A stretch of 64,000 nucleotides of DNA from Cylindrotheca closterium (lineage: Eukaryota > Bacillariophyta > Bacillariophyceae > Bacillariales > Bacillariaceae): NCBI GenBank assembly GCA_933822405.4, contig CAKOGP040001847.1:124001-188000 (forward strand), read 5' to 3'. The notes beneath the pieces were generated by a model. That model was not told where the DNA came from. It saw only the letters and a program-made list of their open reading frames with translations, and did no database searches. This document shows positions 26,507-47,961 of the stretch, piece by piece (position 1 is the stretch's first letter; every line of letters begins with the position of its first letter). Both the position numbers and the translations under genes were made by a program.

Positions 26507-26540
<34 letters not shown>

Positions 26541-28897: not shown

Positions 28898-29127
28898 GTT
28901 TGTGATTGTGATAGAGATGACGATGACGATGCACAATAAACAACATGGCGGTGATGAATTGAAATGAATGACGCATTTCTCACATCTCGTGACTGACTCG
29001 TCATGGTGAGTCAGTACTGATCTAGTCGAGTGAATCAATCATCGTCATCATATATTATCAAAGAATAATAGATGAATAACCCATCTCGAAATCGTCGCAT
29101 AAAATATAATACAGTAGAATCCAATCG
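28898..29127. promoter_or_regulatory. Shared promoter region of two plastid-protein genes
   Basis: Only 230 bases separate the start codons of the PPIase (leftward) and the signal peptidase (rightward), so the two probably share a bidirectional promoter. An AT-rich stretch with TATATTATCA near 29049-29058 and AAAATATAATA at 29101-29111 could serve as core elements; this is inference. Confidence 0.5.
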
Positions 29128-30555
29128 ATGACGATGACGCCAATCAGCTTTGTGGTCTTTCTATGCTTCGTTTACTTCTTGATGCCAGTGGAGTCATTCT
29201 CGTCATCAAGCATTTTGCATCATCGCTCATCCTTATCCCCCTCCTTTCGACAACATGATGGTCGGCTTCCGTTGGCCAAGACCCTACAGGACAATGATGA
29301 TTCTTCATCATCGTCAACGACATCCTTTGCGTCTCCCATGGAGGCCGTTAAAAATTCATTTGGGTTTCAAACAAAGCAAGAAGAATTCCAAAAGGCACAA
29401 GCCGATGGCTTTGGCACACGCGCACGAAATGCGGCCATCAATGCGACAGTTGGTGATATCTTGGTACCGCTCTGCTCCAATTTGGAACAACGACAAAAAC
29501 TAGCCAATCAAGGTGTCTATCCAGGAGTCGAATATGAAATATGCAGCCTTACTTTATTGGCATCATCTGACGATGATATGTCCTCCAGCAGTGGTGACAG
29601 CGGTGACAGCGTTGGAATGAATGGCAATGATGATTCTGCGACTGCCACCATGATGACAGCAAAATCCAAGGTCGTACAGACTCTACAGGGTCTCGACCGT
29701 GGCGCCAAACAAGGTGTCATTGCCACTGTCAAACCTGCCTATCCTTTGCGAGCGCATTTGGAACGAGACGATTGGCCAGTCTCCGTAGCATTGTTGAAGG
29801 ATGTCCCACTGTGGTTGGCCAAGGCCACATATGAGGCAGGCACGGCTGTTGGAACTTTGGCGGTTTCTCTTTCAGGGTTGGTCATGGCATCGTTGGTGGC
29901 CTTTTGGATTCAATTGGTTGGAGTGCCAACACCATCCATGCTCCCAGCGTTGCAACCTGGGACAGTTGTGCTTGTAACACGGAGCCTGCCAATGTTAGGG
30001 AAGGCCTTTCAACCAAAAGTTGGAGATGTCGTCTTTTTCGATGCCCCATCCGAATTGGAGACTGCCATTTCTCAGCGCATGATAATGCCCGAAGAGTCAT
30101 CCGCTGCTACAGCGAGCCAAGACGATGTCAATGACGACATGGCCAATCTCGTGCCTTCTGCCAGCAGCAGCAGCAACAACAACAAGGCCGACACTAGCAC
30201 CAAAGGCAAGCAATTGCTCAAGCGCGTCGTGGCCGTTCCCAATGAAAAGGTAGGGGTCAGGCAGTCTTCGCCGTATGTTCAAGTCTCCGAGTCAACCTAC
30301 CGTTTCGATGTGATTGGACGATATGCCCGCCCCGAAATCTTTCCTGCCGACTCTTGGAATCGTCCCCTCGAGACTTTAGGAAGGAAGGAATACTTTGTGG
30401 CTGGAGACAATGGATACCGATCTGTTGATTCTAGGGTCTGGGGCCCACTCCAACAAAAGTACATTATTGGAACGGCCCAATGGGTGGTATGGCCTTTGGA
30501 CCATTTTGGACCCATCCCGCCTGGTCCCATTTCAGAAGTGACAAAGCCAAAATGA
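29128..30555 (+). CDS. Plastid type I signal peptidase (thylakoidal processing peptidase type)
   Basis: A protein of 475 residues. The leader is a signal peptide ending MPVES followed by Phe (ASAF-type), then a Ser-rich transit stretch. Residues 90-230 form a diatom-type N-terminal extension. A membrane helix near 245-265 leads into the S26 catalytic domain: VPTPSMLPALQPG with the nucleophile Ser270, KVGDVVFF, then LLKRVVAVP with the general base Lys365, and GDNGYRSVDSRVWGPL near 415-430. The enzyme removes lumen-targeting signals from thylakoid proteins, such as the PsbP-like protein in this window. A loop of about 50 residues, rich in Ser, Asn and acids, is inserted before the catalytic Lys. 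The gene is divergent from the plastid PPIase gene. Confidence 0.88.
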   Translation: MTMTPISFVVFLCFVYFLMPVESFSSSSILHHRSSLSPSFRQHDGRLPLAKTLQDNDDSSSSSTTSFASPMEAVKNSFGFQTKQEEFQKAQADGFGTRARNAAINATVGDILVPLCSNLEQRQKLANQGVYPGVEYEICSLTLLASSDDDMSSSSGDSGDSVGMNGNDDSATATMMTAKSKVVQTLQGLDRGAKQGVIATVKPAYPLRAHLERDDWPVSVALLKDVPLWLAKATYEAGTAVGTLAVSLSGLVMASLVAFWIQLVGVPTPSMLPALQPGTVVLVTRSLPMLGKAFQPKVGDVVFFDAPSELETAISQRMIMPEESSAATASQDDVNDDMANLVPSASSSSNNNKADTSTKGKQLLKRVVAVPNEKVGVRQSSPYVQVSESTYRFDVIGRYARPEIFPADSWNRPLETLGRKEYFVAGDNGYRSVDSRVWGPLQQKYIIGTAQWVVWPLDHFGPIPPGPISEVTKPK

Positions 30556-30924: not shown

Positions 30925-33882
30925 TTAGACGCTCCCATATGTGGCACAGCAATAGGCACCAGCTGTTCCCTCAGTGCCACCCATGACCAATCCACGAGAT
31001 CCACAACCACTTGGGTTGCTACCGCTACTCCACAGTCCCCTTTCGCCGCTTTCCAGCCAGCCATATGTACACCAATCTGCTCCAACAATTTGCTCCTTCG
31101 TACAGAGGCCCAATCCTTCTGTGGCACACGCAACTCTAGCTTCCTCCACTGAAGTGAAGTCTCGAGGCAAAAGTAGTGGTCGCCCACAGCACCACGCTCC
31201 GGCATTGGCATACGGATATATTAACCAATCCACATAACCTGGATCGACAGCACATCCTCCTCTAGGGTTGGTGATCCAATAACCTTTACCATCTGTCAAC
31301 CAGCCTGCCGCACAGATGTCGCTATTTTCAATGGCAATCTTGGGACAAAGATCGAGTCCAAGCCTAGCACAGCCATCCACGGCAGCTTCCCGAGTGCTAA
31401 ATTCATACCGTACGGCGTTTGCAGCGCCAAGGGACAGGTCGTAGCTGAACATGACATAGGTCGAAGAAGTGAATTGGTTTTCATAATATGTAGCACAGCA
31501 ATAGGCACCAGCTGTTCCCTCAGTGCCACCGATAAGCAAACCACGAGATCCACAACCACTTGGGTTGCTACCGCTACTCCAAAGTCCCCATTCGCCGCTT
31601 TCCAGCCAGCCATATGCACACCAATCTGCTCCAACAATTTGCTCCTTCGTACAGAGGCCCAATCCTTCTGTGGCACACGCAGCTCTAGCCTCCTCCACTG
31701 AGGTGTAGATATACGCGAAGTCTCGAGGCAAAAGTAATGGTCGTCCACAGCACCACGCTCCGGCAATTATCCTAATAGAAGATTGTGACCAATCCACATA
31801 GCCTGGACTAGGAGCGCAATCTATTCTAGGGTTGGTGATCCAATAACCTTTACCATCTGTCAACCAACCTCCCGCGCAGACGTCGCTATTTTCAATGGCA
31901 ATCTTGGGACAAAGATCGAGTCCAAGCCTAGCACAGCCATCCACGGCAGCTTGCCGAGTGCCAAATTCATACCGCTCGGCGTTTGAAGCGCCACGGGACA
32001 GGTCGTAGCTGAACATGGCATAGGTCGAAGAAGTGAATTGATTTCCATGAGCTCCGAAAGATGGATTGGAACTTGGTGCCAATGTCGGACTTCTCGTAGG
32101 CATTCCGGTCGGCTGAGGTGTCGATGGACTTGGGGTTGGCGGAGATGTGGATGGACTTTGGGACGGCATTCCTGTTGGCATATCGGAAGGGGTTGCGGTG
32201 GGTGTTTCGGACGGCCTTTGACTTTGCGCCTCTGTCGGAACTGGAGTGGGTGGTGGTGTTGGAATTGGCGTTGGATCGGTGACAGGAGCAAATGTAGGCC
32301 CAGAAGACGGCAGGAGGGAAGGTTCTGGGGTTGCTAGTACAATCGGTGCAACTGTCGGCAATCCAGTTGGTTCCTCAGTGGTGGGAAAGGTCACTGGGGC
32401 AGTGGTTGGGTCTGTTGATGGAGATTCCGTCAGAAACAAGGTCGGGTTCTCGCTGGATACTGCTGTAGGAGTCGAGCTTGGAGCCAATGAAATGATTCCA
32501 GAGGCGACTGTCACGATAAATATCTCCACAAAAGGTTGTTGCAATGACAGGTTGCTCACCAGCAACGCTTCCGGTCCCAGCACCTGGACGATCAAACTGA
32601 TCAAATCAAAGGGTCGCTCGGAACCCCGCACATAAAGATCCAAACTGGCCGAAACGTGGAGACACTTCGGCTCGATGCTTCTGGTGCATGGTGTGTCTGG
32701 TCTGGCCTGGACCATGACTTTCCCATTTGCCACCGTGTAGGGCGAAGACACTAATTGGCGTCCTCTTACACGTCGAGTATCGAGAAAGCAGCCAATGAGC
32801 TCGGGCATGAACAGTGCTTGGATTCTTTCTTGTAGTTCAACACGTACAATCTCATCGTCAAGAGAAGTGGACAAGACGACATCCATTGGAACTGTGAAAG
32901 TCTGCAAATTGAGGTCCTCTTGACCAACCAAATCATCTCCTCTCGACACTGCAGCGCAGTCTGCTGGAGACGGAGGGTCATATACCACGGTTTCTGTAGG
33001 TGAAGTGGACGGAAATACCGATGGAAGAAAAGAGGGAGATGTCGTTGGTGTCTTTGTCGCTTCCGTAATTGATTTTTCTGTGCCGATGGTATTGTTGGTC
33101 TCGTTGGCAGGAACTGGAGTCTCAGAATCCGATTGCGTCGCAAAGAAGATGCCCACTCCGGCAGCCGCAAGAATGAGCAAAACCACAATCCAGAATCCAC
33201 CTTTGCAATAGAATGGTGTTTTTGGTGGTGGACTACTGGTGGGTGGTTCCTGTTGCTGTTGATGTTCTTGTCCTGGTGTTGGTGTTGGAACCCAAGGTTT
33301 CACGGCTCTCTGTTCATCGACTGCAGTAGCAACGATGGTATCGTCACCTTCCACAAGGCTACCTGCAATTGTAGTCGTTTCTGGTTCCGGTCTGAGCGAA
33401 GTCTGTGCTTCTTCTGGTTTCAAATCCTCCATGTTGTCCAATTTCGCTCGGATTTTGCTGGACGGTGATGTTGGAGAATTTGGAACAGCGCCAGATTTCT
33501 TGCGGTTTGATCCACTCGCTTTGGATCGTCTTGGACGGTCACTCTCATCGCCGTTGTATTCTTGGACGGCACCTGGGGCAGCAGCCTGTTTGTTAGGCTT
33601 TCCACGATGTTTTGACTTGCGGTCTCGGTCTCTTGCTGACCGTGACAGTGAATCTTTGGATTCATCTACGGACTTGCCCGAACGAGCTTTTCTCTTGGCA
33701 TCTCGATCTGTCTGCTCGCGAGATTTGGAGGCGTTGGACGAGGAGTTGTCCGGCCGACGAGCTCTACGTTTAGCCTCACGATCAGCTCCATCTCTGGACT
33801 TTGTTCGTTTGTCTGCTTCGCCTTTTCGACGCGACGCTTCTCGCCTTTTCCTCTCTTCTCTTTTTTCATCAACGTCTTGCAT
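30925..33882 (-). CDS. Link-like module membrane protein A (four modules)
   Basis: A protein of 985 residues, the largest of the array. Residues 1-135 are Arg/Lys/Asp/Ser-rich and cytoplasmic by the positive-inside rule. A single membrane helix lies at about 228-248 (FWIVVLLILAAAGVGIFF). Outside it comes a conserved region at 309-460 (DDLVGQEDLNLQTF, RGRQLVSSPYTVANGK, RGSERPFDLISLIVQVLG) of unknown family, vaguely SEA-like, then a Pro/Ser/Thr linker at 465-612. The C-terminus has four modules (638-713, 722-799, 825-900, 908-983), each with six Cys spaced as C-x7-C-x10-C-x(19-21)-C-x(17-21)-CC. Phrases such as CAAGWLTDGKGYWITNPRGGC resemble the Link domain core (GWLADGxVxYPIxxPRxxC). The pairs are a 549-base internal duplication. 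The function may be binding of surface polysaccharide; this is inference. Confidence 0.83.
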   Translation of the reverse strand: MQDVDEKREERKRREASRRKGEADKRTKSRDGADREAKRRARRPDNSSSNASKSREQTDRDAKRKARSGKSVDESKDSLSRSARDRDRKSKHRGKPNKQAAAPGAVQEYNGDESDRPRRSKASGSNRKKSGAVPNSPTSPSSKIRAKLDNMEDLKPEEAQTSLRPEPETTTIAGSLVEGDDTIVATAVDEQRAVKPWVPTPTPGQEHQQQQEPPTSSPPPKTPFYCKGGFWIVVLLILAAAGVGIFFATQSDSETPVPANETNNTIGTEKSITEATKTPTTSPSFLPSVFPSTSPTETVVYDPPSPADCAAVSRGDDLVGQEDLNLQTFTVPMDVVLSTSLDDEIVRVELQERIQALFMPELIGCFLDTRRVRGRQLVSSPYTVANGKVMVQARPDTPCTRSIEPKCLHVSASLDLYVRGSERPFDLISLIVQVLGPEALLVSNLSLQQPFVEIFIVTVASGIISLAPSSTPTAVSSENPTLFLTESPSTDPTTAPVTFPTTEEPTGLPTVAPIVLATPEPSLLPSSGPTFAPVTDPTPIPTPPPTPVPTEAQSQRPSETPTATPSDMPTGMPSQSPSTSPPTPSPSTPQPTGMPTRSPTLAPSSNPSFGAHGNQFTSSTYAMFSYDLSRGASNAERYEFGTRQAAVDGCARLGLDLCPKIAIENSDVCAGGWLTDGKGYWITNPRIDCAPSPGYVDWSQSSIRIIAGAWCCGRPLLLPRDFAYIYTSVEEARAACATEGLGLCTKEQIVGADWCAYGWLESGEWGLWSSGSNPSGCGSRGLLIGGTEGTAGAYCCATYYENQFTSSTYVMFSYDLSLGAANAVRYEFSTREAAVDGCARLGLDLCPKIAIENSDICAAGWLTDGKGYWITNPRGGCAVDPGYVDWLIYPYANAGAWCCGRPLLLPRDFTSVEEARVACATEGLGLCTKEQIVGADWCTYGWLESGERGLWSSGSNPSGCGSRGLVMGGTEGTAGAYCCATYGSV

Positions 33883-34258
33883 GTTTTTCAGCTTGTCTTT
33901 GATTTACTGTAAGCGTTGTGTATAATATGATCTCTTTTATATTAATTCTGCTGAGGAAGTTTGAAAGTGCTTGGTGTTGTTGCCGCGTTTAAATTACTTG
34001 GCTAAATTACTTGGCTACTGGTACTACCGGTACGTTTTCTCACCCGACCTGGCACCTGGTACAAACGTTTTTTCTTTTTTGACTGGCTTCATCAAGAATG
34101 ACTTGTTTTCCAATTCAAAAAAATGACGATAAGAACCACCACTACGTACAATTTTACGTGGTGAATTTCTTTTTTTCCTGAAAAAAAATGACCGTAATTT
34201 TTTTTATAGAAAAGTGGATGATGGATGACGATTGACTCTAACGCGCAGCATTCGAGCA
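33883..34258. promoter_or_regulatory. Upstream region of gene A
   Basis: About 375 bases preceding gene A on the leftward strand. It contains TATAATATGATC-like sequence near 33920, one TACCGGTA (34025-34032) and several T-runs. Nothing else is recognised. Confidence 0.45.
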
Positions 34259-35790
34259 TCATGGCCACCGCCTGTCAACTGGAACCTGGATGGAACACGA
34301 GCGATTGGCCAAAGCGACATTTTGCAGATCTGGGACTCCCAGACACAGGAGCATTGGAGCAGTCTTTGGTGGAATGTGAAGAAGAAGTGAATTGATTTCC
34401 ATAGTCTCCGAAAGATGGACTGGAGCTTGCTGCCGATGTCGGACTTTTTGTTGGCATTCTTGTTGGCTGAGGTGTCGATGGACTTTGGGACGGCATTCAG
34501 AAAGGGATGTTGTGGGAGCCTTTGATGGGCTTGGCGTTGGTGCTGCTATCGGACCAAGTGGGTGGTGGTGGTGGTGGAAGTGCCTGGGGTTGGATCGGTG
34601 ACAGGAGCAAATGTAGGCACAGAAGTCGGCGGGAGACAAGGTTCTGGAGTTGCTTCAACGATTGGTGCAACTGTCGGTGATCTACTTGGAGCCTGAGTGT
34701 CTGGAACAGCCACTGGGGCAATAGTCGGGTCTGTGGAAGGAGATTCCGTGGGAAACAAGGTCGGATTCTCGCTGAACATCGCCGTAGGAGTCGAGCTTGT
34801 CGCCAACGTAATGGTTCCAGAGGCGGCCGCCACGATAAATATCTGCACAAAAGGCGGTTGCAATGTCAACTTATTGTTCACCAGCAGAGCTTCCGGTCCC
34901 AGCACCTGGACGATCAGACTGATTAAATCAAGGGGCTCTCAGAACCCCGCACATAAAGATCAAAGTTGACCGAAACGTGGAGACAGTTGTGCTCGGGACT
35001 TTTGATGCATGGTGTGTCTGGTCTGGCCTTGACCGCTACTTTCCCGTTTGCTGTTGTGTAGGGCGAAAACATGAGCTCGGGCATGAACAATGCTTGGATT
35101 CTTTCTTATAGTCCAACACGCACAATCTCATCGTCAAGAGAAGTGGACAAGGCGACATCCATTGTTGGCACTGTGAAAACCTGTCGATCGAGGTCTTCTT
35201 GACCAACCAAATCATCTCCTCTCGACACTGCAGCGCAGTCTGCTGGAGACGAAGGGTCAAATGCCAAGGAGGTCTCCGTTGGTAAAGTGGACGGGAACAC
35301 CGATGGAAGAAAAGAAGGAGGTGTCGTTGGTGTCTTTGTCGCTTCCGTAATTGGCTCTATACTGTGCCGATGGTATTGTTCGTCTCGTTGGCAGGAAATG
35401 TAGTCTTAAAATCCAATTGCGTCAAAAAGAAGACGCCCGCGCCGGCAGCTGCAAGAATGAGCAGAACCATCACAATTCAGAATCACCTTTGGAATAGAAT
35501 GGTGTTTTTGGTGGACTACTGGTGGGCTTCTTTTCCTGTTCTTTTCGTGGTGTTGGTGTTGGAACCCAAGGTTTCACCGCGCTCTATTCATCGACTGCAG
35601 TAGCAACCATGTCATCGTCACCTTCCACAAGGCTACCTGCAAGAGCATTTGTTTCCGGTTCCAGTTTGGCTCTTCGAAGACCGGCTCTGCGTTTGGCATT
35701 ACGATCCATTTTCTCACGAGACGTGGCAATTTGAAGTTAATAAGAAGCAGCTGAAGCATTGGAAGAGGAGTTGTCTGGCCGGAAATAGAT
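34259..35790 (-). pseudogene. Decayed Link-like family member (copy B)
   Basis: Parts of the family protein are readable on the leftward strand in different frames. About 35110-35300 holds PADCAAVSRGDDLVGQED; about 34546-34905 holds the end of the ectodomain and the linker (VLGPEALLVNN, then ENPTLFPTESPSTDPT); about 34275-34496 holds the last linker and GNQFTSSS. In-frame stops and frameshifts interrupt it, for example near 35107 and 34935. The charged cytoplasmic part is reduced to a remnant near 35640-35720, and the cysteine modules are replaced by unrelated sequence after GNQFTSS. The copy is closest in layout to genes C and D. No intact product is expected. Confidence 0.75.
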
Positions 35791-35979
35791 AGACAGAATG
35801 CTCATATTAAAATATATAGGGCGGTACGATTACAGTAGGTACTGTATTTTTTATCAACGTGATGTAACGATTTGCCCTACAGTACATGACAATGCTTCTA
35901 AGACTCCTGACGGAATTGAAGTGCTCCTCTGTCCATTCTTTCTGTGTTCGGTGGTAATACACTCTGCCTGGGAAAGACT

Positions 35980-38751
35980 CTACTGATTGGAAGCGCAGCA
36001 ATAGGCACCTGCTGGATCATAGGTGTCACCCACGTTCAAACCGAGAGATCCACAACCACTCGGGTAGGTACCATCATTGTACAGTCCCCAAAGTGTGTCT
36101 AGCCAGCCAAATGCACAGGTACTTCCTCCGACAATTTGCTGAACTGTACAGAGGACCAATCCTTTTTCTGCACAAGCAGCTCTAGCCTCTTCCCGTGTAT
36201 CGTAAATGTACGTGTAGTTTCGAGGCAAGTACAAAGGTCGCCCGCAGCAGTACGCTCCGGCAAACTCGCGGTTCCACTCCACATAGCCGGGACTGTTGCG
36301 ACATCCTGGTCTAGGGTTGGAGATCCAATATCCTACGGAATCCGTCATCCACCCAGCCGCGCACAAATCGCCATTTTCGATGGCGATCTTTGGGCAAAGA
36401 TCGAGTCCAATCGCGGCACAGCCTGCTGCGGCAGCTTCGCGGGTGCCAAAGACATAGGAGGGACCAGCGGGTAAGTTTGGGTGGTACATAACATAAGTCG
36501 AAGAAGTGAATTGGTTTCCAAACGGTTCGTTGACGGAAGGATTGGAACTGGGTGCCAAAGTAGGACTATTTGATGCCACCTCTGTGGGTTCATGGGTCGG
36601 CCCAAAGGTTGGCGGAGTTGTAGATGGAGCTGCAGATTCAGCAACAGATGGACTTGAGGATGGCATTCCTGATTGCGCAATGGAAGGTGATACAGAGGAC
36701 GTCTTGGATGGGCTTAGTGTTGGCCCTTTTGTCGGGGCAAAAGTGGGTGTTGGTGTTGGAAGTGGCGTTGCGTCTACAACCGGAGCAAATGTTGGACTGG
36801 AAGTCGTGGGCACAGGAGTCGGTAGAATAGTTGGTTCTGGAGTTGATAGTACAGTTGGTGCAACTGTCGGCGATCCAGTTGGTTCCTCAGTGGTTGGAAA
36901 GGTCACTGGGGCAGTAGTTGGGTCTGTGGACGGAGATTCCGTGGGAAACAAGGTCGGATTCTCGCTGGACACTACCGTAGGCGTCGAGCTTGGCGACAAT
37001 GTAATGGTTCCAGAGGCGACCATCACGATAAATATCTGCAAAAAAGGCGGTTGCAATGACAACTTGTTCACCAGCAAAGCTTCCGGTCCCAGCACCTGGA
37101 CGATCAAACTGATCAAATCAAAGGGTCTCTCTGACCCCCGTACGTACATGTCGAGTTTTACCGATACATTGAGACAGTTCGGCTCGGTGCTCCTGGTGCA
37201 GGGTGTGTCTGGTCTGGCCTGTACCAAAACTTTGCCATTTGCAACTGTGTAAGGGGAAGACACTAGTTGGCGTCCTCGTACACGACGAGTGTCAAAAAAG
37301 CAGCCAATCAGGTTGGGCATGAGCATTTCTTGGATTCTTTCTTGGAGTTCAACACGCACAATCTCGGAGTCCACTGGACCGGACAGCACGACATCCATTG
37401 GAATATTGAAAGTCTGCAAGTTGAAGTCCTCTTGACCAACCAAGTCATCTCCATTCGACACCGCAACACAGTCTTCTTCAGACGGAGGTTCGTATATCAA
37501 GGTTTCCGTTGGAGTACTAGACGGAAACGCGGATGGAAAAAAAGAAGGAGATGTTGTTGGTCTCTCCGTTTCTTCCGGGACTGGCCGTGCTGCTTCACCG
37601 TTGGCAGGTAACGCAGTCTCATTATTCGACTGTGTCGCAAAGAAGATTCCCACTCCGGCACCTGCAAGTATGAACAGAACTGCGATCCAGAATGCACCCT
37701 TGCCATAGAACGATTTGCGTGGTGGACTGGTGATGACGGGTGCTGGTGGTGTTGTCAGTGTTGTCGGTATTATTGTCGGTGTTTCCTTAGCTTGAACTAC
37801 CCCATCTTCATCGACTGCTGTAGCAATGACAGCATCGTCGCCTTCTACGAGGCTACCTGCAACAGCAGTCGTTTCAGGTTCCGGCTTGAGCGAAATCTCT
37901 GGTTCTTTTGGTGGTTTCGAGTCAGCTTCCATTTTCTCTCCCATTCTTCTTGACGCCGACGAAGATGATGAAACCGCTCCAGCTTTTGTGTGCCTCGACG
38001 GCAAGCATAATGGACCCGCTCCAGCAGATGATTGAGCCGCTCCAGCTTTTGTGTGCCTCGACGGCAAGCATAATGGACCCGCTCCAGCAGATGATTGAAC
38101 CACTCCAGCTTTTGTGTGCCTCGACGGCGAGCATAATGGACTCGCTCCAGCAGATGATGGAACCGCTCCAGTGTTTGTGTGCGTCGACGTCGAACTTTCC
38201 TTGTTTCGTCTGCAGCGGTCGTCTTCGTCGTCGTTATATTCTTGGACGACACCGGGGGCAGATGCTTTTGTGTTTGGCCGTACACGATGTTTGGCCTTGC
38301 TGTCTCGGTCTCTTGCTGATTTTGACAGCGAATCATTAGAATCTGCTGCCGATCGGCTCCTCGAAGATTTGGCTCTATGTTTGGCATCTCGGTCCATCTG
38401 CTCGCGAGATTTGGAAGGAGATTTAGAAGCAGTGGCCGAGGGCTTGTGAGCTCTACTTTTGGCCTCACGACCAGCCTCATCTAGAGAGGAGGATTTCGTT
38501 TCTTTTTTTGCTTCGACAATGCCACGAGACGCCTCTTGCCCTTTTCTCCCTTGATCAGCCTCGTTTCGATTAGAGGAACGGCGACGACTCGGCTTTGCCT
38601 CATTTCGATTAGAGGAACGGCGACGACTCGGCTTTGTCTCATTTCGATTAGAGGAACGGCGACGACTCGGCTTTCTTTGTTTGCCTCCTGCACTGTGATG
38701 AGAACTGTCTTCTCCATTTCTCTCTTGTTTGGTTTCATCAGCGTCTTGCAT
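35980..38751 (-). CDS. Link-like module membrane protein C (two modules)
   Basis: A protein of 923 residues, starting at the ATG at 38751 (MQDADETKQE), which matches the start of gene A and D; the 27 codons upstream in frame differ between copies and are probably not used. Layout: cytoplasmic charged part (1-345) with three 13-residue repeats (RRRSSNRNE-KPS) and three to four 21-residue repeats around PSRHTKAGAV; membrane helix about 353-372; conserved ectodomain about 428-580 (DDLVGQEDFNLQTFNIPMDVV); Pro/Ser/Thr linker 590-742; two six-cysteine Link-like modules at about 768-836 and 852-920 (CAAGWMTDSVGYWISNPRPGC). The linker is identical in sequence to that of gene D, while the modules differ in places. 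The function is unknown; a surface glycan or matrix-binding role is inferred from the module similarity. Confidence 0.82.
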   Translation of the reverse strand: MQDADETKQERNGEDSSHHSAGGKQRKPSRRRSSNRNETKPSRRRSSNRNEAKPSRRRSSNRNEADQGRKGQEASRGIVEAKKETKSSSLDEAGREAKSRAHKPSATASKSPSKSREQMDRDAKHRAKSSRSRSAADSNDSLSKSARDRDSKAKHRVRPNTKASAPGVVQEYNDDEDDRCRRNKESSTSTHTNTGAVPSSAGASPLCSPSRHTKAGVVQSSAGAGPLCLPSRHTKAGAAQSSAGAGPLCLPSRHTKAGAVSSSSSASRRMGEKMEADSKPPKEPEISLKPEPETTAVAGSLVEGDDAVIATAVDEDGVVQAKETPTIIPTTLTTPPAPVITSPPRKSFYGKGAFWIAVLFILAGAGVGIFFATQSNNETALPANGEAARPVPEETERPTTSPSFFPSAFPSSTPTETLIYEPPSEEDCVAVSNGDDLVGQEDFNLQTFNIPMDVVLSGPVDSEIVRVELQERIQEMLMPNLIGCFFDTRRVRGRQLVSSPYTVANGKVLVQARPDTPCTRSTEPNCLNVSVKLDMYVRGSERPFDLISLIVQVLGPEALLVNKLSLQPPFLQIFIVMVASGTITLSPSSTPTVVSSENPTLFPTESPSTDPTTAPVTFPTTEEPTGSPTVAPTVLSTPEPTILPTPVPTTSSPTFAPVVDATPLPTPTPTFAPTKGPTLSPSKTSSVSPSIAQSGMPSSSPSVAESAAPSTTPPTFGPTHEPTEVASNSPTLAPSSNPSVNEPFGNQFTSSTYVMYHPNLPAGPSYVFGTREAAAAGCAAIGLDLCPKIAIENGDLCAAGWMTDSVGYWISNPRPGCRNSPGYVEWNREFAGAYCCGRPLYLPRNYTYIYDTREEARAACAEKGLVLCTVQQIVGGSTCAFGWLDTLWGLYNDGTYPSGCGSLGLNVGDTYDPAGAYCCASNQ
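37972..38185. repeat. 63-bp in-frame minisatellite inside gene C
   Basis: Three full copies and one partial copy with a 63-base (21-codon) period, seen as AGCTTTTGTGTGCCTCGACG at 37981, 38044 and 38107. It encodes the PSRHTKAGAxxSSAGAGPLCL repeat. Gene D has about two diverged units at the equivalent place. Confidence 0.85.
38567..38683. repeat. 39-bp in-frame repeat inside gene C
   Basis: Three nearly identical 39-base units (GATTAGAGGAACGGCGACGA and so on) encode 13-residue repeats of RRRSSNRNE type. Gene D has three more diverged units. Confidence 0.85.
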
Positions 38752-39429
38752 ATTTTTCAGGTCACTGTTAGCTCTGTGTACGGTACTATTAATTACAGCT
38801 TTACTGGTACCGGTATGCATGATCAAATCCAAAATGTATCGAGTGACGAGTGCCTCTGGCCGAAAAATTGTCCATGCGTGCTTGGTTGTGACGATAGGTT
38901 CGACTCTCTTTTCTCTAAGCAGTCTTTCAATTTTGAAGAATGAATGTTTGTTATCGTATTATACATGTTGACGACAATTCGTTTTCAGAATTTTGTATTC
39001 ATCATAAATAAAGCCATTTGGCTTTAGAAGTGTTTAATTAACGAATGAATTTTCTTTAAGTGCTATAGTTTCTAAAATCCACTGCAGCAACCGTAACCAC
39101 CCTTCACAGACGAGTGAGTCAATCAGTCAGAGAAAATTATGGATCATAGATGTCTCTGTGGAAAGACACTTTCAACTTGAGAGCGCTTACATGCGTGGAC
39201 CGTGGACCTAATGACTAAGGTCTAGTTCTGTACCAGGTACCCAAACGAAGGAGCTTCTAGAGTCTCAATACCCTGGGTCTGTTCAATGGGCCATTTCACC
39301 CGCGTTTGGTTTTTTTGCACCCGCTTGACATCTGATGGTTGAAGTATACGAGTATACACCAGTATCATCTCCCATCCACTACGACTGTGCTGTTACAGGA
39401 CAGTATGTGGGTGTCTGACGATATTCACG
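38752..39429. promoter_or_regulatory. Upstream region of gene C
   Basis: About 680 bases up to the decayed LRR fragment. Homologous in patches to 45061-45600 (upstream of gene D), for example CAATTCGTTTTCAGAAT and TTTCTAAAATCC. Contains TACCGGTA at 38808-38815. No other gene seen. Confidence 0.45.
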
Positions 39430-40133
39430 TGTTAGCATGCTGCGCATGTCTCGTGCTGGTGAGTTCCAGATGCAAATCAAGAAGTCGAAGGAAGTATCAT
39501 TAGGATTCATTCGCTACAGAATGGCTGATGGCAAAAACGTCATCCTTCCTGGCTGCCCAACCTGCCCAATCGCGATGTTTTTAAACCAGGCTACTGCGAC
39601 TGGCGACTTGCCGATGGAACTGGGGAAGCGGAAGCAAGGTTTCTATGATCCTGTGCTGGTGGTGCTGATAACGAAAGATTTATGCATCTCGCAAGAGTTT
39701 TATGATTAGCTTCTTAGTAAAAGCTTCTAGTATAATGAATCTGAAAGTTGTCAATAACAAAACTTGCTCTAGTTTGGATTAGAGTTTTCGAATGACCAAG
39801 TCAAAGCTCAAGCTTTTCTTCGGTCAGCCCATGACTGGTTCTGCTTACTTTCACGGTTGATGTATGACGGTTTAGGCTCGTCACTATCTGAATCCGCGGA
39901 GTCAGTTGTCCGTCCCTGTACGACTTCCAACGCTTGGAAAAGATGTGTAACTGCCTGGAAAGAAATGAAAAAGCATAAAAGCATGGGAGGTAGTGAAAGA
40001 GATTATGGATCCTCTCAGCAAGCGGTCGTGAATACTACCAAGATATCATACTTCTCAGCAAACTTGTGAATGATGTAGTGTGAATATAACATAGATAGCT
40101 CTTGTTGTAATCTGGCGATTGGTCGATAGCTAT
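39430..40133 (+). pseudogene. Decayed LRR-protein fragment, copy 1
   Basis: Rightward-strand sequence related to the gene at 1210-2724. It begins near 39470 with TCAAGAAGTCGAAGGAAGTA (compare TCAATCAAGTCGAAGGAAGT at 1217) and keeps traces of the N-terminal domain up to GATAACGAAAGAT near 39668. After a poorly matching stretch, the C-terminal tail reappears near 39935-40070 (AGCATGGGAGGTAGTGAAA, CATACTTCTCAGCAAA). The leucine-rich repeats are absent, frames are shifted and stops occur. It shares an insertion (CCCAACCTGCCCA) and a 3' flank with the second copy that the intact gene lacks. Confidence 0.75.
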
Positions 40134-42208
40134 GGGACCACTAAAAATTGGCCCAAAATCCACCTTTTTGTGCATATTATATTCTAAAATAAAAGCACAC
40201 TAGAAATTCAAAATCGCATGTAGCTTTTTGACCCCAATAGCATCGTTTTTCCGTGGAAAAAATTCATTATATGACTTAAAAAATTGGCAAAACAAGAATG
40301 CGACTTAGTGTTAGATCTTGGTGCTCACACCTGCACGCAGAATTTGTAGTGTGTAAGTAGTATACACGTACGTGTACGTCGAACCCGCGAACATCAATTT
40401 TTTCTTCAACCGACAATGGTATATACCTTGAGTCCGAGAAAATCACCACCCTCTGCTCTGGAGGAAAACTCGTGGGTCGCGGACGTTCTCTGTATCGTGA
40501 CTATATCTATCTTGTGTGTATTAAGCGATATGGATGCATTTGCCCCTTTCACCTCTGAAATCGCTGCTAAAGATCCCCAACAAGGTCTGAAAACTACTTT
40601 TGAAGAGGTTTCGGCACGTCCACGAAGTCCCAAGGCAACATAGAGCTGGAATTTTCTGTGGAAGTTGCTTCTCTTATATTATACTAAAAGCAATGACACC
40701 ATTTTATATTCATTATCTGGGTTCCTACAGGACGATTTTCGACCGAGACCAGCATTGAGTTGCAAATTCATCGGTCAAAATGAAATTGCACGGCCTGGAA
40801 CCCATGAGAGGAGAAAGTGGAATCAGAGGTTGTGGCAAGCATAGTTAATACCTATATTACGTCGGGAGCGACGGTAATGATGTTGAATATTTTTTGCTGG
40901 GCCGCGATCACACAATAATCCACCGTGATTGTTTCTGTTGGTTGAGAAGACGTATTTGCCGAATGCGACTCATATCTAACATCACCATCAAGACAAGATC
41001 TACATGGAAACTCGTCCAACGACCAAAATTGACGATTTGGAGCACATCAAGGAACAATGATGGCATTGTTCCCCCCGTTTGGACAAACCGGTGGTGTGGG
41101 CGCCCAGAGAAGTAAAAACTGCCGAGCATGTTGTGGCAAGCGTATTTGGTAGATATTCTATGGCTGGAGCGGAGATTCATAATTACACTACAATCTACCC
41201 TGTTTTGTTCGACTGGTTCTGTTGGGTTACAGAACCTGGTCGTCAGAAAGTAAAGGGGGCAAAGGCCTCACATTCAACATGCGCTGCAAAGCTCCGCAGT
41301 GATCACACTTACTCAGAGATCCATTCGGTTGTGTCTTGTTTGGAATACTTGCTGAGATATTGAAATTCCAGTGTTTGGTGCTATATTTGTCGTCCATGGG
41401 TATGTATGAGAAGATTAGAGGCTTTGGAGTTGGCGTTTTCTAGAGGTAAAGGTTATTGAATAGCACTCACACTGCTTGGGGATCAATCCACGTTCATTAA
41501 AGATTGTGGCTGGAATAGTAGCCGAGTCGATACCCTGACACGATGGCACCAAGTTCAAAGTTGGTCAATAAATAGTAATCGAATTTGGGCGGTGGTTTGG
41601 AGTGCTGTGGCGGAAAAGAGATTCTAGGCTAGCATAAATTTTTAAATCCTTTCCTCTAGTATTTTTCATTTGACTTTGTGGATGGCCTTGAATATTATCG
41701 ATTCTATACGAGTATCTCTATTCAGAGTGGACGAAGCCCTAGCAAATACATATAATTAAGCTATTGCAGTGAAATTTATCTAAGAATGTAACCGCAACAA
41801 GGTCTGATGGTACGAGATCGGCCTCTTGCCTCTCTCTAGATTTTTTTCTTGTTAATCACATGAGCCGATTCAGTCAAAGTATCTAACAGCTGATTTTTAT
41901 TTTTGCCGTTACGAGATGTTGGTTGGTGTAGTTGAGGCCCTCTATCACCTCCTTCAGACCTATAATTGCTCAAAAGGCATATGCAAAGTACATTCTAGGC
42001 TACGGTAAAGGTTCTAGCCTAATGTTTTTTTTTCTTCGCCATAATCCTCCAAATCCCAGCACTTTCTTGGCGATACATTCTCCAATGCTGCACATCACAC
42101 ACCATCCGTGTCTATATACCGGTAGTGAATCTTTCATCTTGACACTTGACGCTGGTTGTCTTCTTTCGTTTGATCAACAACGTGAAGGACAATAATGATG
42201 GTCTTCTG
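40134..42208. other. Spacer between the duplicated blocks, possible insertion
   Basis: About 2.07 kb with no convincing gene. The sequence CATTCTCCAATGCTGCACATCA at about 42078 recurs (one base different) at about 46499, only about 160 bases after the end of the second decayed LRR fragment. So about 1.9 kb of this spacer (roughly 40134-42070) may be inserted DNA. A weak open frame at 41079-41363 preceded by an in-frame stop could be decayed coding sequence, but I recognise no transposase or terminal repeats. TACCGGTA occurs at 42117-42124. Confidence 0.45.
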
Positions 42209-42417
42209 TAAGCAGATAGACAGAATGTTCAATAAATATGTAGGACGATACGATTACAGTAGGACTACTGAAGGTACTGTACTTTTTATCAATGTTCTGC
42301 AAATATTTGCCCTACATGGAAATGCTTCATTTGGAAGACTCCTGACGGAATTTAAATGATGCGCCTTTGTCTATTCTTTCTCTTTTCGGAGGTAATATAC
42401 TCTGTTTGGGAATGACG

Positions 42418-45060
42418 CTACTGATTGGAAGCGCAACAATAGGCACCTGCTGTTCCATCATTGTCCCCAACATTCAAACCACGAGGTCCACAACCAACCG
42501 GGTTGCTACCGCTACTCCAAAGTCCCCAAAGGGTATCTAGCCAGCCATATGCACAGTAGTCTGCTCCCTCGATTTGCTGAGGCGTACAGAGGACCAATCC
42601 TTCGTCTGCACAAGCAGCTCTAGCCTCTTCCCGTGTATCGTAAATGTACGAGAAATCTCGAGGCAAGTACAACGGTCGCCCGCAGCAGTACGCTCCGGCA
42701 AACTCGCGGTCCACCCACTCTACAAAGCCGGGAGTAGTACGGCACCCTGGTCTAGGGTTGGAGATCCAATATCCTACTGCATCCGTCATCCACCCAGCCG
42801 CGCAAATGTCGCCATTTTCAATGGCGATCATTGGGCAAAGATCGAGTCCAATCGCGGCACAGCCTGCTGCGGCAGCTTCGCGGGTGCCAAATTCATATGG
42901 GTCGGAGAAATCGTTCGTGTGGTACAAAACATAAGTCGAAGAAGTGAATTGATTTCCAAACGGTTCGTTGACGGAAGGATTGGAACTGGGTGCCAAAGTA
43001 GGACTATTTGATGCCACCTCCGTGGGTTCATGGGTCGGCCCAAAGGTTGGCGGAGTTGTAGATGGAGCTGCAGATTCAGCAACAGATGGACTTGAGGATG
43101 GCATTCCTGATTGCGCAATGGAAGGTGATACAGAGGACGTCTTGGATGGGCTTAGTGTTGGCCCTTTTGTCGGGGCAAAAGTGGGTGTTGGTGTTGGAAG
43201 TGGCGTTGCGTCTACAACCGGAGCAAATGTTGGACTGGAAGTCGTGGGCACAGGAGTCGGTAGAATAGTTGGTTCTGGAGTTGATAGTACAGTTGGTGCA
43301 ACTGTCGGCGATCCAGTTGGTTCCTCAGTGGTTGGAAAGGTCACTGGGGCAGTAGTTGGGTCTGTGGACGGAGATTCCGTGGGAAACAAGGTCGGATTCT
43401 CGCTGGACACTACCGTAGGCGTCGAGCTTGGAGCCAATGTAATGGTTCCAGAGGCGACCGTCACGATAAATATCTGCAAAAACGGTGATTGCAATGACAA
43501 CTTGCTTGTCAAGAGACCTTCTGGTCCCAAGACTTGAAGGATTAGGCTGACCAAATCAAAAGGTCGCTCTGACCCCCGTACGTACATGTCGAGTTTTACC
43601 GATACGTGGAGACAGTTCGGCTCGGTGCTTCTGGTGCAAGGTGTGTCTTGTCCGACCTGTACCAAAACTTTGCCATTTGCAATTGTGTAAGGGGAAGACA
43701 CTAGTTGGCGTCCTCGTACCCGACGACTGGCAGAAGCGCAGCCAATGAGTTCGGGCATGAGCATTTCTTGGAGTCTCTCTTGGAGTGCACCACGCACAAT
43801 CTCGGAGTCCACTGGAGTGGACAACACGACATCCATTGGAATATTGAAAGTCTGCAAGTTGAGGTTCTCTTGACCAACCAAGTCATCTCCATTCGACACC
43901 GCAACACAGTCTTCTTCAGACGGAGGTTCGTATATCAAGGTTTCCGTTGGAGTACTAGACGGAAACGCGGATGGAAGAAAAGTAGGAGATGTTGTTGGTC
44001 TCTCCGTTTCTTCCGGGACTGGCCGTGCTGCTTCACCGTTGGCAGGTAAAGCAGTCTCATTATTCGACTGTGTCGCAAAGAAGATTCCCACTCCGGCACC
44101 TGCGATTATGAAAAGAGCTGCAATCCAGAATGCACCCTTGCAATAGAACGGTTTGGGTGGTGGACTGGTCATGATGGGTTCCTCTTCTGGTCTTGTTGTT
44201 GGTGGTATTATTAGCGGTGCTTCCTTAGATTGAACTACTTCTTCTTCGTCGACTGCTGTAGCAACGATGGCATCGTCGCCTTCTACAAGGCTACCTGCCA
44301 GAGTAGTCGTTTCAGGTTCCGGCTTGAGCGAAATCTCTGGTTCTTTTGGTTTCGAGTCAGCATCCATTTTCTCTCGCATTCTCCTTGACGCCGACGAAGA
44401 TGATGGAACCGCTCCAGCTTTTGTGTGCTTCGACGGCGAGCATAATGGACTCGCTCCAGCAGATGATGAAACCGCCCCAGCTTTTGTGTGCCTCGACGAC
44501 GAGCCACTCTCCTTGTTTCGTCTGCGCCGGTCGCCTTCGTCGTCGTTGTATTCTTGGACGACACCGGGGGCAGATGCTCTTGTGTTGGGCCGTACACGAT
44601 GTTTTGCCTTGCTGTCTCGGTCTCTTGCTGATTTTGACAGCGAATCGTTAGAATCTGCCGACCGGCTTCTCGAAGACTTGGCTCTCTGTTTGGCATCTCG
44701 GTCCATCTGCTGGCGAGATTTGGAAGGAGATTTGGAAGCAGTGGACGAGGGCTTGCGAGCTCTACTTTTGGCCTCACGATCAGCCTCTTCTCGAGCGGAG
44801 GGTTTACTTTCTTTGTTTGTTTCGACAATGTCACGAGACGCCTCTCGCCCTTTTCTCTCTTGATCAGGCTCATCTCGATCAGCGGAAGGGCGACGGCTCG
44901 GCTTTGTCTCATCTCGATCGGCAGAACGGCGACGACTCGGCTTTGCCTCATTTCGATCAGAGGAACGGCGACGACTGGGCTTTCTTTGTTTGCCTCTTTC
45001 ACGGTGACGAGAACTTTCTGGTCTTTTGCTCTCTTGTTTGGTTTCATCCGCGTCTTGCAT
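42418..45060 (-). CDS. Link-like module membrane protein D (two modules)
   Basis: A protein of 880 residues, starting at the ATG at 45060 (MQDADETKQESKR) by comparison with A and C; the 81 upstream codons in frame are not conserved. Layout: cytoplasmic charged part with three 13-residue repeats and about two 21-residue repeats; membrane helix about 310-330 (FWIAALFIIAGAGVGIFF); conserved ectodomain about 387-537; Pro/Ser/Thr linker about 547-699; two six-cysteine Link-like modules up to the C-terminus (CAAGWMTDAVGYWISNPRPGC, then CAYGWLDTLWGLWSSGSNPVGC). It differs from C in the ectodomain (for example GCASASRRVRGRQ instead of GCFFDTRRVRGRQ) and in the modules but not in the linker. The second module is closer to those of gene A (WSSGSNPxGCGxRGL), which suggests exchange within the array. 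Confidence 0.82.
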   Translation of the reverse strand: MQDADETKQESKRPESSRHRERGKQRKPSRRRSSDRNEAKPSRRRSADRDETKPSRRPSADRDEPDQERKGREASRDIVETNKESKPSAREEADREAKSRARKPSSTASKSPSKSRQQMDRDAKQRAKSSRSRSADSNDSLSKSARDRDSKAKHRVRPNTRASAPGVVQEYNDDEGDRRRRNKESGSSSRHTKAGAVSSSAGASPLCSPSKHTKAGAVPSSSSASRRMREKMDADSKPKEPEISLKPEPETTTLAGSLVEGDDAIVATAVDEEEVVQSKEAPLIIPPTTRPEEEPIMTSPPPKPFYCKGAFWIAALFIIAGAGVGIFFATQSNNETALPANGEAARPVPEETERPTTSPTFLPSAFPSSTPTETLIYEPPSEEDCVAVSNGDDLVGQENLNLQTFNIPMDVVLSTPVDSEIVRGALQERLQEMLMPELIGCASASRRVRGRQLVSSPYTIANGKVLVQVGQDTPCTRSTEPNCLHVSVKLDMYVRGSERPFDLVSLILQVLGPEGLLTSKLSLQSPFLQIFIVTVASGTITLAPSSTPTVVSSENPTLFPTESPSTDPTTAPVTFPTTEEPTGSPTVAPTVLSTPEPTILPTPVPTTSSPTFAPVVDATPLPTPTPTFAPTKGPTLSPSKTSSVSPSIAQSGMPSSSPSVAESAAPSTTPPTFGPTHEPTEVASNSPTLAPSSNPSVNEPFGNQFTSSTYVLYHTNDFSDPYEFGTREAAAAGCAAIGLDLCPMIAIENGDICAAGWMTDAVGYWISNPRPGCRTTPGFVEWVDREFAGAYCCGRPLYLPRDFSYIYDTREEARAACADEGLVLCTPQQIEGADYCAYGWLDTLWGLWSSGSNPVGCGPRGLNVGDNDGTAGAYCCASNQ

Positions 45061-45599
45061 CTTTTTCAGTGTTCTGTTGACTCTGTGTGTGTGTGTTTGG
45101 TCTTTTTTATTACCTGTACCTACGGTGAGTGCCTCTGTGACCATTGGATGATTGATTCTACCAGGGGCCGGTACACTGTTTCGTATGCTTGCGTGTACAG
45201 GATGATGGACACTACTGTTAGTTCTAAAGCAGTCTTCCATTTTTAAGAATGACTGTTTTTGGTGGCAATTCGTTTTCAGAATCTTGATCATAAACGGAGC
45301 CACTGATTTTCTAATTATAGGAGGGACTTTCTATAAGTGCTATTGCGTCTAAAATGCTACCTCTGGCAGTTGCAGTTTCTGAGCTCGCTCGTGCATGAAG
45401 GTTTGCACCATCTTCAATATCTGATGGTTGAAGTAAATACGGCACACCAGTATCATCTCTCATCAAAAGCTATTGTATTGCCTCGTGCAGGTATCTGATA
45501 ATGTTTACTTCTCAGCATGTGAGGGTCTCATTATGACCGGCAAATGCTTATCATAAAATGGACGTAGCACAGTGTACCTGCGTATCTTCAACGACTACC
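45061..45599. promoter_or_regulatory. Upstream region of gene D
   Basis: About 540 bases; shares patches with the region upstream of gene C and includes a short GT-type microsatellite near 45082-45095. No gene seen. Confidence 0.45.
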
Positions 45600-46341
45600 G
45601 GAGAGCACGAAGTGTGAAACAAGTGAATATCAAGATCAAGTCGAAGGAAGTATTGTGCTTCCTCTCCAGAATGGCAAAAACATAATCTTTCTTGCCCAAC
45701 CTGCCCACCAAGTGCGATACAAACCAGGCAACGGCGACTGGCGACTTGCAGATGGTAGTAACGAAGCGGAAGCGGAGCCACCCTTCTATTTTGGGTTGGT
45801 GGTGAAAACGAAAGATACAGTATACAGTATGTGTACCGAAGCAGAGATTCATCCAAAGGTCTTTCAAGCATGTTCTTGGGCTGTCGGTTATCCAATGGGA
45901 TCCTTTGACCTGCCAAGACAGAGGCTAGAGTACCTTTCCCATTTCCTTTTCCTATGGCCCATGTCAAGATATCTTTTGGTCTCGATCGCCGGCTTGTGTT
46001 CCCGATTCATTCCTCTGCTTGGGTAGACTGGCAATGAACAAGTCGCCACACTCTTTGAAAATGGGGAACATGGGATGTTGGCAGATTATGGTATGAGTTG
46101 TTGTACGGGTACATCTCCACCCTCCAGTGCAACGCTGTGCTAAAGCAATTCAGAAAAGATGTGCAATTGCCTTTAAAGAAATGAAAAAGCATGGGAGGTA
46201 GTGGAAAAGATTATAGATCCTCTCAGCAAGCGGCCGCGCCAATATCACCGAGATACCATACTTCTCAGCAAACTTGTGAATGATGTAGCATGAATATAAC
46301 ATAAATAGTTCTTGTTGTAGTCTGGCGATTGGTCGATAGCG
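45600..46341 (+). pseudogene. Decayed LRR-protein fragment, copy 2
   Basis: The clearer of the two fragments. From about 45622 it reads like the gene at 1210-2724 (QVEGSIVLPLQNGKNIIF against QVEGSIVIPLQNGKHIIL) through ADGS, and keeps DNA matches such as TTGGTCTCGATCGCCGGC (near 45978, compare 1515) up to GTAGACTGG. Directly after that, at about 46035, the sequence jumps to the C-terminal part (GAACAAGTCGCCACACTCT, compare 2488) and follows it to the end. So the whole leucine-rich repeat region, about 900 bases, is deleted. Frameshifts and a stop at 46024-46026 also break it. Confidence 0.8.
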
Positions 46342-46889
46342 ATAATATAGCTGGGAACACGTGAAGCAAGCACATTCGGTACCAGGGTACTTGGCAGTGC
46401 AGCATACTGTATACCGGTAGTATCAAGTATTTTCAGCATTTTGGTACCGGTAGTGTTAGCATGGCGGTGCGTACCTCGTACGTGTCGTAAGTGATCACAT
46501 TCTCCAATGCTACACATCACCTAAATGCGAACCATCCGCCACTCGGCGAAATTTCGCCGTGACACCTCTGACAAGACCTGTGTCTTCTTTTTTCTTTGTT
46601 AGTTTGTCTGATCGAATGCTGCCACATGCCATGTCATAGTGCCCTTCCCAATAACGCAACTCCGGGGTAACAGAATTCTTTTTGTATCGTCACGATGGGG
46701 GCCACCAACAAGAGCAGAAGCACAAGGTTGCTTGGTTGGTTCGTCAATTGGTCCTTGGCTAGGATTCGTTTGCTTCTTTTGAGAACAATTAAGCCAAGCG
46801 ACAGACAACACCAAGTGATAGAACACCAAACAAGACATTGTTCAAATTCAAATAACTCCCACTGGTTCGCAACCTACTGTTACCGGATA
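46342..46889. other. Intergenic with TACCGGTA motifs
   Basis: About 550 bases. Contains TACCGGTA at 46412-46419 and 46445-46452, plus GGTACC-like half sites. The right end must hold the promoter of the small gene starting at 46890. No gene is seen. Confidence 0.45.
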
Positions 46890-47288
46890 ATGCCCAGTTT
46901 TCTCAGTCGAAAACTTTTACCGCAACAGCAGCCATCCCGAAAGACTGTTTCCTCTACGGCGAGACCTACCGATGAAATTGTCATTCACTTCGAAACTACC
47001 AAGTCCTGCTGTTCCTCCAGCGTGTCCTATCCTTCCAGTTCTGCAAAAGTGCTAATGACTACCAACAAAAGCAGCACTCAATCCCAGAACACAAGATCTA
47101 CTTCTTCCTGGAGTACTACAGCCACTTCTTCTACAACCGCCTCCTTTCTTTGTGGGACTCCGACTACGAATACGAATAGTAGTAGTAGCAGTCCTGTCTC
47201 ACATGTCGGAATCCTGCATACAGGCAGTGTTGACGAGAGCATCACCGAAGAAGATGAATGGGGATTCTTTGTGGATTATGGCGATTGA
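46890..47288 (+). CDS. Small Ser/Thr-rich protein of unknown function
   Basis: A protein of 132 residues from the ATG at 46890 (MPSFLSRKLLPQQQPSRK). A longer frame from 46695 exists, but its extra N-terminus has no coding character. The middle is very rich in Ser and Thr (for example SSTTASFLCGTPTTNT), and the C-terminus is acidic and ends EEDEWGFFVDYGD. I recall acidic DEWGxF(V) endings from other small diatom proteins, which makes a real gene more likely. There is no membrane segment. The function is unknown. Confidence 0.5.
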   Translation: MPSFLSRKLLPQQQPSRKTVSSTARPTDEIVIHFETTKSCCSSSVSYPSSSAKVLMTTNKSSTQSQNTRSTSSWSTTATSSTTASFLCGTPTTNTNSSSSSPVSHVGILHTGSVDESITEEDEWGFFVDYGD

Positions 47289-47961
47289 TGGCTGACCACC
47301 AATCTGCTGTCCACCCACTGTACCATTCTTTTCTGTCTACTATTATATTATACATTTTACATTGGGAGAGAGATTTTGAGAAACTCTTTTGCCACACTTT
47401 TGGCAATCTCTTTCCCCATGATCTCCATTTTTTGCATATTGTACTCACATGCACACATATACACATACACACAACCAATCCTCACGACATACATAGATAT
47501 AGGATACATTAGTATTTTTTTTAAAATTATTGATGCAATCTCTGATTTTAAAAATAGCATTCGTTCAAGGGACAATTGGATGTTCCCAAGATCAAAGGAT
47601 GTAGTTGGGTAAAGATAATATAAGGAATCTTTATTATTAATATTCCTACGAATATATATAGGACTATATATACTTCACAAAAAGAAGTAATGTGCTACAC
47701 TAGTACGCAAGTGTGTGTGTTCGTGTGTGTGCGTGTTGATATCGAATAAGATTTGCTTCCGATGAAAGCAGTCCCTTGAAGCAATGCAGGAATGACTAAA
47801 CTGAACGATGCAATCGAGAGAGGCATAGTGTTCAGACTCAACCTACAATTGAAGGGGGAACTTTCTCAGTGGACAGCAGTTGTGGGTAGCTGTGGAAAAA
47901 AGGTAGCTATAGAAGGATGGTAGCTGTGGTGGATAGGTATCCAGAATGAAGTAGCAGGACA
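47289..47961. other. Intergenic, convergent 3' ends
   Basis: About 670 AT-rich bases with a GT-type microsatellite at about 47709-47738. Short frames have biased composition and no domain. Nothing else recognised. Confidence 0.5.

Follow-up and report, generated by a model that had tools for sequence, protein, structure and literature searches.

Gene array and protein architecture

The window analysed here comprises 64,000 nucleotides of the genome of the diatom Cylindrotheca closterium (contig CAKOGP040001847.1, positions 124,001 to 188,000 of the forward strand); all coordinates below are those of the window. Between positions 30925 and 45060, it carries three intact minus-strand genes, designated A, B, and C, and one broken copy, with frames read without a start rule. 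The genes encode putative membrane proteins that end in tandem Link-like modules. Gene A (30925..33882) is an open frame for 985 amino acids with four modules and has its stop codon at 30925-30927. Gene B (35980..38751) encodes 923 amino acids and gene C (42418..45060) 880 amino acids, each with two modules. All three proteins share the start MQD(A/V)DE, and the conserved start methionine of gene C is located at 45060. Additional in-frame ATG codons occur at 38820 in gene B and at 45144, 45240, and 45291 in gene C. The broken copy lies between genes A and B (34371..35661, minus strand). As revealed by tblastn with protein A, it consists of pieces in several frames with in-frame stops and spans the region from the tail to the stalk, the modules being gone except for their first residues. 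By eye, the tail remnant extends to approximately 35780. The first-pass annotation of this stretch, which listed three intact genes and one wreck, was thus exact in both gene content and coordinates.

The domain architecture proposed in that annotation was also recovered. Each protein consists of a basic tail, one hydrophobic segment, an ectodomain, a stalk rich in Pro, Ser, and Thr, and four (A) or two (B and C) modules. The single hydrophobic segment, identified by hydropathy only, begins at residue 230 in A, 353 in B, and 310 in C. With coordinates derived from residue numbers, these predicted membrane helices occupy 33139..33195 (hydropathy 2.71, basic side N-terminal), 37639..37695 (2.41), and 44077..44133 (2.32), respectively. 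The same hydropathy analysis detected no N-terminal signal peptide in any of the three proteins. Judging from the charge distribution, genes A-C most likely encode type II single-pass membrane proteins. The ectodomains are 162-163 amino acids long (A, 32485..32973; B, 36997..37485; C, 43435..43920). The stalks measure 147-160 amino acids, with Pro, Ser, and Thr making up 60-62% of the residues. The stalk of gene A (32044..32484) has 147 amino acids (27% Pro, 15% Ser, and 20% Thr); those of gene B (36517..36996) and gene C (42955..43434) have 160 each and differ from one another in a single residue. Such stalks resemble those of CD44 and LYVE-1.

Modules and their relationship to the Link family

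Module borders were set at repeated sequence landmarks. Two module types alternate within every pair. The first type is represented by A1 (31738..32043), A3 (31177..31479), B1 (36235..36516), and C1 (42673..42954), which score 16.1, 17.2, 20.4, and 20.3 bits with the Pfam Xlink model (PF00193) when taken alone. The second type includes A2 (31480..31737; 22.8 bits), A4 (30928..31176; 22.6 bits), B2 (35983..36234; 17.5 bits), and C2 (42421..42672; 19.5 bits). All six cysteines announced for the modules are present in each of the eight. Their alignment contains 18 invariant columns, including five of the six cysteines; the sixth is shifted by one residue between the two types. The phrase CxxGW(L/M)TDxxGYWIxNPRxxC, given earlier as a general signature, holds for the first module of each pair (four of eight), while the second modules read C(A/T)(Y/F)GWL at this place. 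In gene A, the two module pairs show 89% DNA identity to each other and represent an internal duplication. Recurrence of the modules on two other contigs and in two other proteins, together with dN/dS values (ratios of nonsynonymous to synonymous divergence) of 0.07-0.44, places them beyond chance.

The whole proteins A (42.6 bits), B (27.5 bits), and C (30.4 bits) exceed the Xlink cut-off of 27 bits because the scores sum over the modules. A profile was made from 13 modules: eight from the window, four from the two proteins described below, and one partial module from contig C478. Among 177635 distinct PDB sequences, this profile gave four matches at E ≤ 10, all of them Link chains: aggrecan (1e-7), LYVE-1 (1.4e-6 and 1.2e-4), and TSG-6 (7.1e-5). 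Alignment of the profile to five Link segments with hhalign gave a probability of 97.4%, which adds little, since these segments were selected by the same profile; the ectodomain profile, used as a control, gave 0.06% with the same segments. When 12 modules were aligned together with Link chains, the CxxGW core and all four cysteines typical of Link matched the columns of TSG-6 and LYVE-1. Three cysteine columns are shared with aggrecan, whose segments stop short of the fourth. Of the two extra cysteines noted in the first-pass annotation, one falls on the first Ala of the LAT stretch, and the other follows the last of the Link cysteines. They probably form a third disulfide, and the alignment suggests that the disulfides C1-C4 and C2-C3 are kept. 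The second helix of the diatom modules is five residues shorter than in Link chains.

The resemblance to Link noticed earlier therefore stands at the profile level. Structure prediction gave a mixed result. In searches with the model of a tandem pair, Link chains filled the top 17 rows of Foldseek and all but one of the first 17 of VIA-align, but the model itself is weak (predicted local distance difference test, pLDDT, 57.4). Sequence identity to Link chains in the first 17 structural rows was 19-31%, and C-type-lectin-like chains, including NKG2D and CD94, appeared among the rows below the top. Taken together, there is little doubt that the modules are true, though divergent, members of the Link family. 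They share four canonical cysteines and the CxxGW core with the Link modules of TSG-6, aggrecan, LYVE-1, and CD44, and the arrangement in tandem pairs with aggrecan. Apart from the additional cysteines and the shortened helix, they differ from known Link proteins in that they form the tip, at the C-terminus, of a type II protein of a diatom, mostly lack the basic hyaluronan contacts, and are accompanied by no Ig domain detectable with Pfam.

Distribution of the modules

Relatives were sought among 5.8 billion proteins in a search that requires common five-residue words and similar length, so that absence elsewhere is not implied. Besides the window's own proteins, it retrieved P0004 from C. 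closterium (610 amino acids) and P0005 from a Bacillariaceae metagenome-assembled genome (995 amino acids). Both were already labelled with Pfam Xlink (34.5 and 48.3 bits, respectively). P0004 shows no ectodomain, for which a gene-model error is a possible reason. The earlier suggestion of a surface family in diatoms fits the anatomy of stalked surface proteins, but the named relatives all come from Bacillariaceae.

Within the C. closterium genome, modules occur on the window's own contig (C308), on C204, which carries two genes (h1 and h2), and on C478, which carries a divergent gene related to P0004 and P0005. The modules of the latter gene (L024:5360-6700) are apparently interrupted by introns, in contrast to the uninterrupted frames of the array genes. 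Pfam Xlink, searched against the whole genome, had no match at genome-wide E-values, probably because the score of one module is too low; a protein query did find the modules. At the sensitivity of the scans, none of 185 pattern stretches from prokaryote contigs and none of 49 and 42 from viral contigs was related to the modules. Titles and abstract beginnings in the open-licence literature yielded no paper on diatom Link/Xlink modules or hyaluronan.

A tail motif similar to GEVLLEAxAVDE precedes the membrane helix in P0004, P0005, L024, and L029, with a looser variant in L033; genes A-C have VEGDD..ATAVDE at a similar place of the tail. A frame of 296 amino acids (L022:2609-3496) that lies between h1 and h2 on C204 appears transposase-like by eye and has no Pfam match at 0.001.

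A shared ectodomain with different heads

The ectodomain is far more widespread in this genome than the modules. A search with it as the query gave 153 matches, 150 of 235 candidates being scored. Among the matches listed, 138 had E ≤ 0.001; these fall into 133 distinct frames, 127 of which are at least 300 amino acids long. The 133 frames include the three genes and the broken copy of the window, and some probably represent two haplotypes of one gene. Candidate allele pairs are C204/C308 and equal-score pairs such as C321/C570 and C27/C338.

Sixteen frames from outside the window were compared with Pfam. Over the cut-off, DUF285 was found in five, and WSC, ricin-B, and LRRNT_2 in one each. 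The remaining eight, one of which is the intron-bearing Link gene of C478, show none of these domains. Frame matching assigned DUF285 to at least 20 of the 133 ectodomain frames, WSC to at least two (an equal-score pair), and ricin-B to at least one; these counts are lower bounds, and the DUF285 list is a selection of rows. In this genome, the tail, helix, ectodomain, and stalk seen in the Link genes also bear DUF285 heads. Ricin-B and WSC are carbohydrate-binding families. One further head of about 170 residues, cysteine-containing and without a family name, was seen in ectodomain frames on C435 (L038), C534 (L039), and C24 (L043), and once also on C536 (C536:192-692); the C536 copy and one C534 copy contain a stop.

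The ectodomain itself has no Pfam name. Twelve families match one ectodomain each, the best being DUF6874 (6.5e-4), and none of 28 ectodomains matches Pfam SEA at E ≤ 1. In the large protein set, only the three proteins of the window were found among 1134 candidates, which does not show absence elsewhere because P0005 has the ectodomain and was nevertheless missed. The ectodomain of gene C, a paralog of that in gene A, was modelled as beta-alpha-beta-beta-alpha-beta (pLDDT 57), and this model had no Foldseek match at E ≤ 0.001. A profile search against PDB returned only the thyroid hormone receptor (E 0.86-1), a match we do not believe. In contrast to the SEA domain found in Gpr126 and in membrane mucins, the cleavage site of which is of the GSVVV type, the ectodomain has conserved cysteines, an RXL loop, and no match to the Pfam SEA model. 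No relevant paper on diatom SEA domains was found in the literature surveyed as above.

Ligand site and proposed function

Most likely, the proteins of the array belong to the cell surface or wall, are tethered to the membrane, and bind polysaccharides through exchangeable heads. In the specific form that we favour, by a modest margin over even odds, they are type II mucin-stalked proteins that bind the diatom's own polysaccharide through a Link pair mounted on a reusable base. The long basic tail would lie in the cytoplasm, with the ectodomain, the mucin-like stalk, and the Link pair or pairs, the latter at the tip, outside the cell. By analogy to aggrecan and hyaluronan, the tandem pair may grip a polysaccharide of the cell's own mucilage or wall and thereby tether the matrix to the cell. 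With the base common to about a hundred or more frames that carry other heads, the Link head would be one exchangeable ligand-binding tip.

For the ligand site, positions were scored in 12 aligned modules against the hyaluronan contacts of TSG-6, which we take to be Lys11, Tyr12, Tyr59, Phe70, Tyr78, and Arg81; the alignment is uncertain near 78-81. Tyr occupies the Tyr12 position in 11 modules, the twelfth having a gap there. Tyr is found at the Tyr59 position in four of the 12, namely, the first-type modules of the window, and these four have Trp at the Tyr78 position.

Several observations weigh against the proposed function. The Lys11 position is basic (Arg) in only two of the 12 modules, and neither Phe70 nor Arg81 is retained in any. 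Every module taken singly (16.1-22.8 bits) falls below the Xlink cut-off, and the tandem-pair model is of low confidence (pLDDT 57.4; predicted template modelling score 0.44). NxS/T sequons are not commoner in the presumed outer part, several tails holding them too. The commonest named head in our sample is DUF285, a domain described as being without known ligand or function (PMC11992049).

Since the basic contacts are mostly absent, hyaluronan is a highly improbable ligand. An aromatic platform without them suggests a polysaccharide other than hyaluronan, and binding of some polysaccharide by the Link pair appears likely.

Probable sequence exchange among the paralogs

Of seven pairwise dN/dS values for the modules, six lay between 0.28 and 0.44, and that for C-h2 was 0.07. 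Those for the helix and ectodomain were 0.27-0.39, with the exception of h1-h2 (0.66, on very few changes). The tail gave 0.36-0.42 for A-B and A-C and was near neutral (0.82-0.88) for B-C, B-h1, C-h1, and C-h2. Divergence jumps along the genes: between B and C, synonymous divergence (dS) is 0.294 in the modules versus 0.015 in the stalk, and windows at positions 1726 to 2176 of gene B match gene C with 98-100% identity. The longest identical run shared by B and C is 410 base pairs (bp) in the stalk part (maximum of 67 in 1000 shuffles). Genes h1 and h2 share 1284 bp in their 5' part (shuffle maximum 70), and C and h2 share 945 bp from the first module into the 3' flank (shuffle maximum 102). 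The shuffle control is lax, and other pairs exceed their maxima too (C-h1, 89 versus 76; B-h1, 81 versus 46; A-B, 49 versus 31), because the flanks are more diverged. The case for mosaicism is made by the length of the three runs and their changing partners; gene conversion or unequal exchange would account for it best. One identical tract spans most of the stalk, and the others finish in the ectodomain and the first module. Contig C204 aligns to the window at 40218-44442 (95-97% identity) and 45540-48000 (92%). It is probably the other haplotype of this region with one gene more, the alternative being a duplication elsewhere.

Alternatively, the array may be a recognition locus with reshuffled copy number and heads, in which the Link heads would bind proteins, such as those of partner cells or bacteria. 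The mosaic paralogs and the presence of two genes on C204 where the window has one agree with this explanation, as does the occurrence of the protein binders NKG2D and CD94 within the lectin-like fold class retrieved by the model. However, the average dN/dS of the modules is well under 1, with single fast sites still possible, and the sister heads include ricin-B and WSC. We regard protein recognition as unlikely and polysaccharide binding as the better account of the array.

The RXL motif of the ectodomain loop

A variable loop of the ectodomain contains the tripeptide RQL in gene A (32752..32760), gene B (37264..37272), and gene C (43702..43710). R-x-L was found in 26 of 29 loops, those of genes A-C included, against 7.6 expected from shuffles. 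The 29 loops derive from 25 of 34 ectodomain matches in the fetched loci, the three window copies, and P0005; the other nine matches were dropped as partial or near-duplicate copies. The exceptions are the C478 relative, which has RQT, and two further loci, L025 and L026, which lack R-x-L. RR occurs in 21 of the 29 loops versus 11.1 expected.

According to one report, RXL sites had until then been found only in biosilica-associated proteins, and their role in processing was a hypothesis (PMC5647440). Sin1 is described as a silica-vesicle membrane protein with RXL (PMC5525289). Sin1 and SAPs are single-pass membrane proteins with RXL behind a signal peptide (PMC5525289 and PMC5647440). The proteins studied here share the tripeptide with silaffins, cingulins, Sin1, and SAPs, and the single membrane pass with the latter two. 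They differ in that RXL is located in a domain loop rather than after a signal peptide and that a long basic part lies N-terminal of the helix. Cleavage at RXL is a possibility to which we assign somewhat less than even chances. In the polysaccharide-binding scheme, cleavage in the secretory path could release the head or give a two-piece protein.

The enrichment of RXL, known from biosilica-associated proteins and Sin1 (PMC5647440 and PMC5525289), also raises the idea of silica-wall proteins: the ectodomain would be cut in the manner of silaffins, leaving the head and its stalk in or on the frustule. This scenario is compatible with polysaccharide binding. We consider it doubtful: the motif here lies in a domain loop of proteins without a signal peptide, in contrast to the arrangement reported for Sin1 and SAPs in these sources, the RR-rich loop makes another basic-site protease possible, and three relatives lack the tripeptide.

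Two further explanations concern the modules themselves. Convergence of a Cys-rich, Trp-containing fold from another family would accord with single modules below the Pfam cut-off and a weak structure model, but is very improbable given that all four PDB matches are Link chains and that four Link cysteines and the CxxGW core are in register. Least probable of all is that hyaluronan binders were recently acquired from a virus or an animal. In favour of this, reports of Link have otherwise come from animals, and Tupanvirus XLINK matches group near fish matches (PMC12383584). Against it, the modules share 19-31% identity with Link chains in the first 17 structural rows, have two extra cysteines, occur in two further proteins of Bacillariaceae as well as in two divergent lineages of genes in this genome, and have no relative in the viral contigs scanned.

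The array as a possible part of a larger repertoire

A broader interpretation joins these results. One base, present in more than 100 genes, may serve as a combinatorial system, in which a basic tail, a helix, a SEA-like ectodomain with an RXL cleavage loop, and a mucin-like stalk carry Link, DUF285, leucine-rich repeat, WSC, ricin-B, or at least one unnamed head. Recombination in the stalk and adjoining parts would have attached the heads, resulting in a diverse and cleavable adhesin or receptor repertoire. We advance this idea tentatively, as falling short of an even chance.

One paper traces Link modules to an ancestral gene of animals and associates them with hyaluronan and polymers of that kind (PMC12383584). 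Duplicated modules of this family that are native to diatoms would point to an older origin or an ancient transfer. The array offers a candidate for the molecule by which a diatom holds on to the polysaccharides that coat it. The shared base would unite many unannotated membrane proteins of this genome as one family, including the DUF285 proteins, whose domain is described as prominent in ocean diatom transcripts yet unexplained (PMC11992049). It also makes head, loop, and stalk separately testable.

Neighbouring genes

Bacterial promoter and terminator patterns occur in the window at shuffle level and carry no meaning in a diatom. On the minus strand at 47962-50430, there is a frame of 822 amino acids with several hydrophobic segments, receptor-like by eye, that has no Pfam match at 0.001. 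On the other side of the array, the region 26205-30555 contains genes for an amino acid transporter, a PPIC-type isomerase, and a signal peptidase S26.

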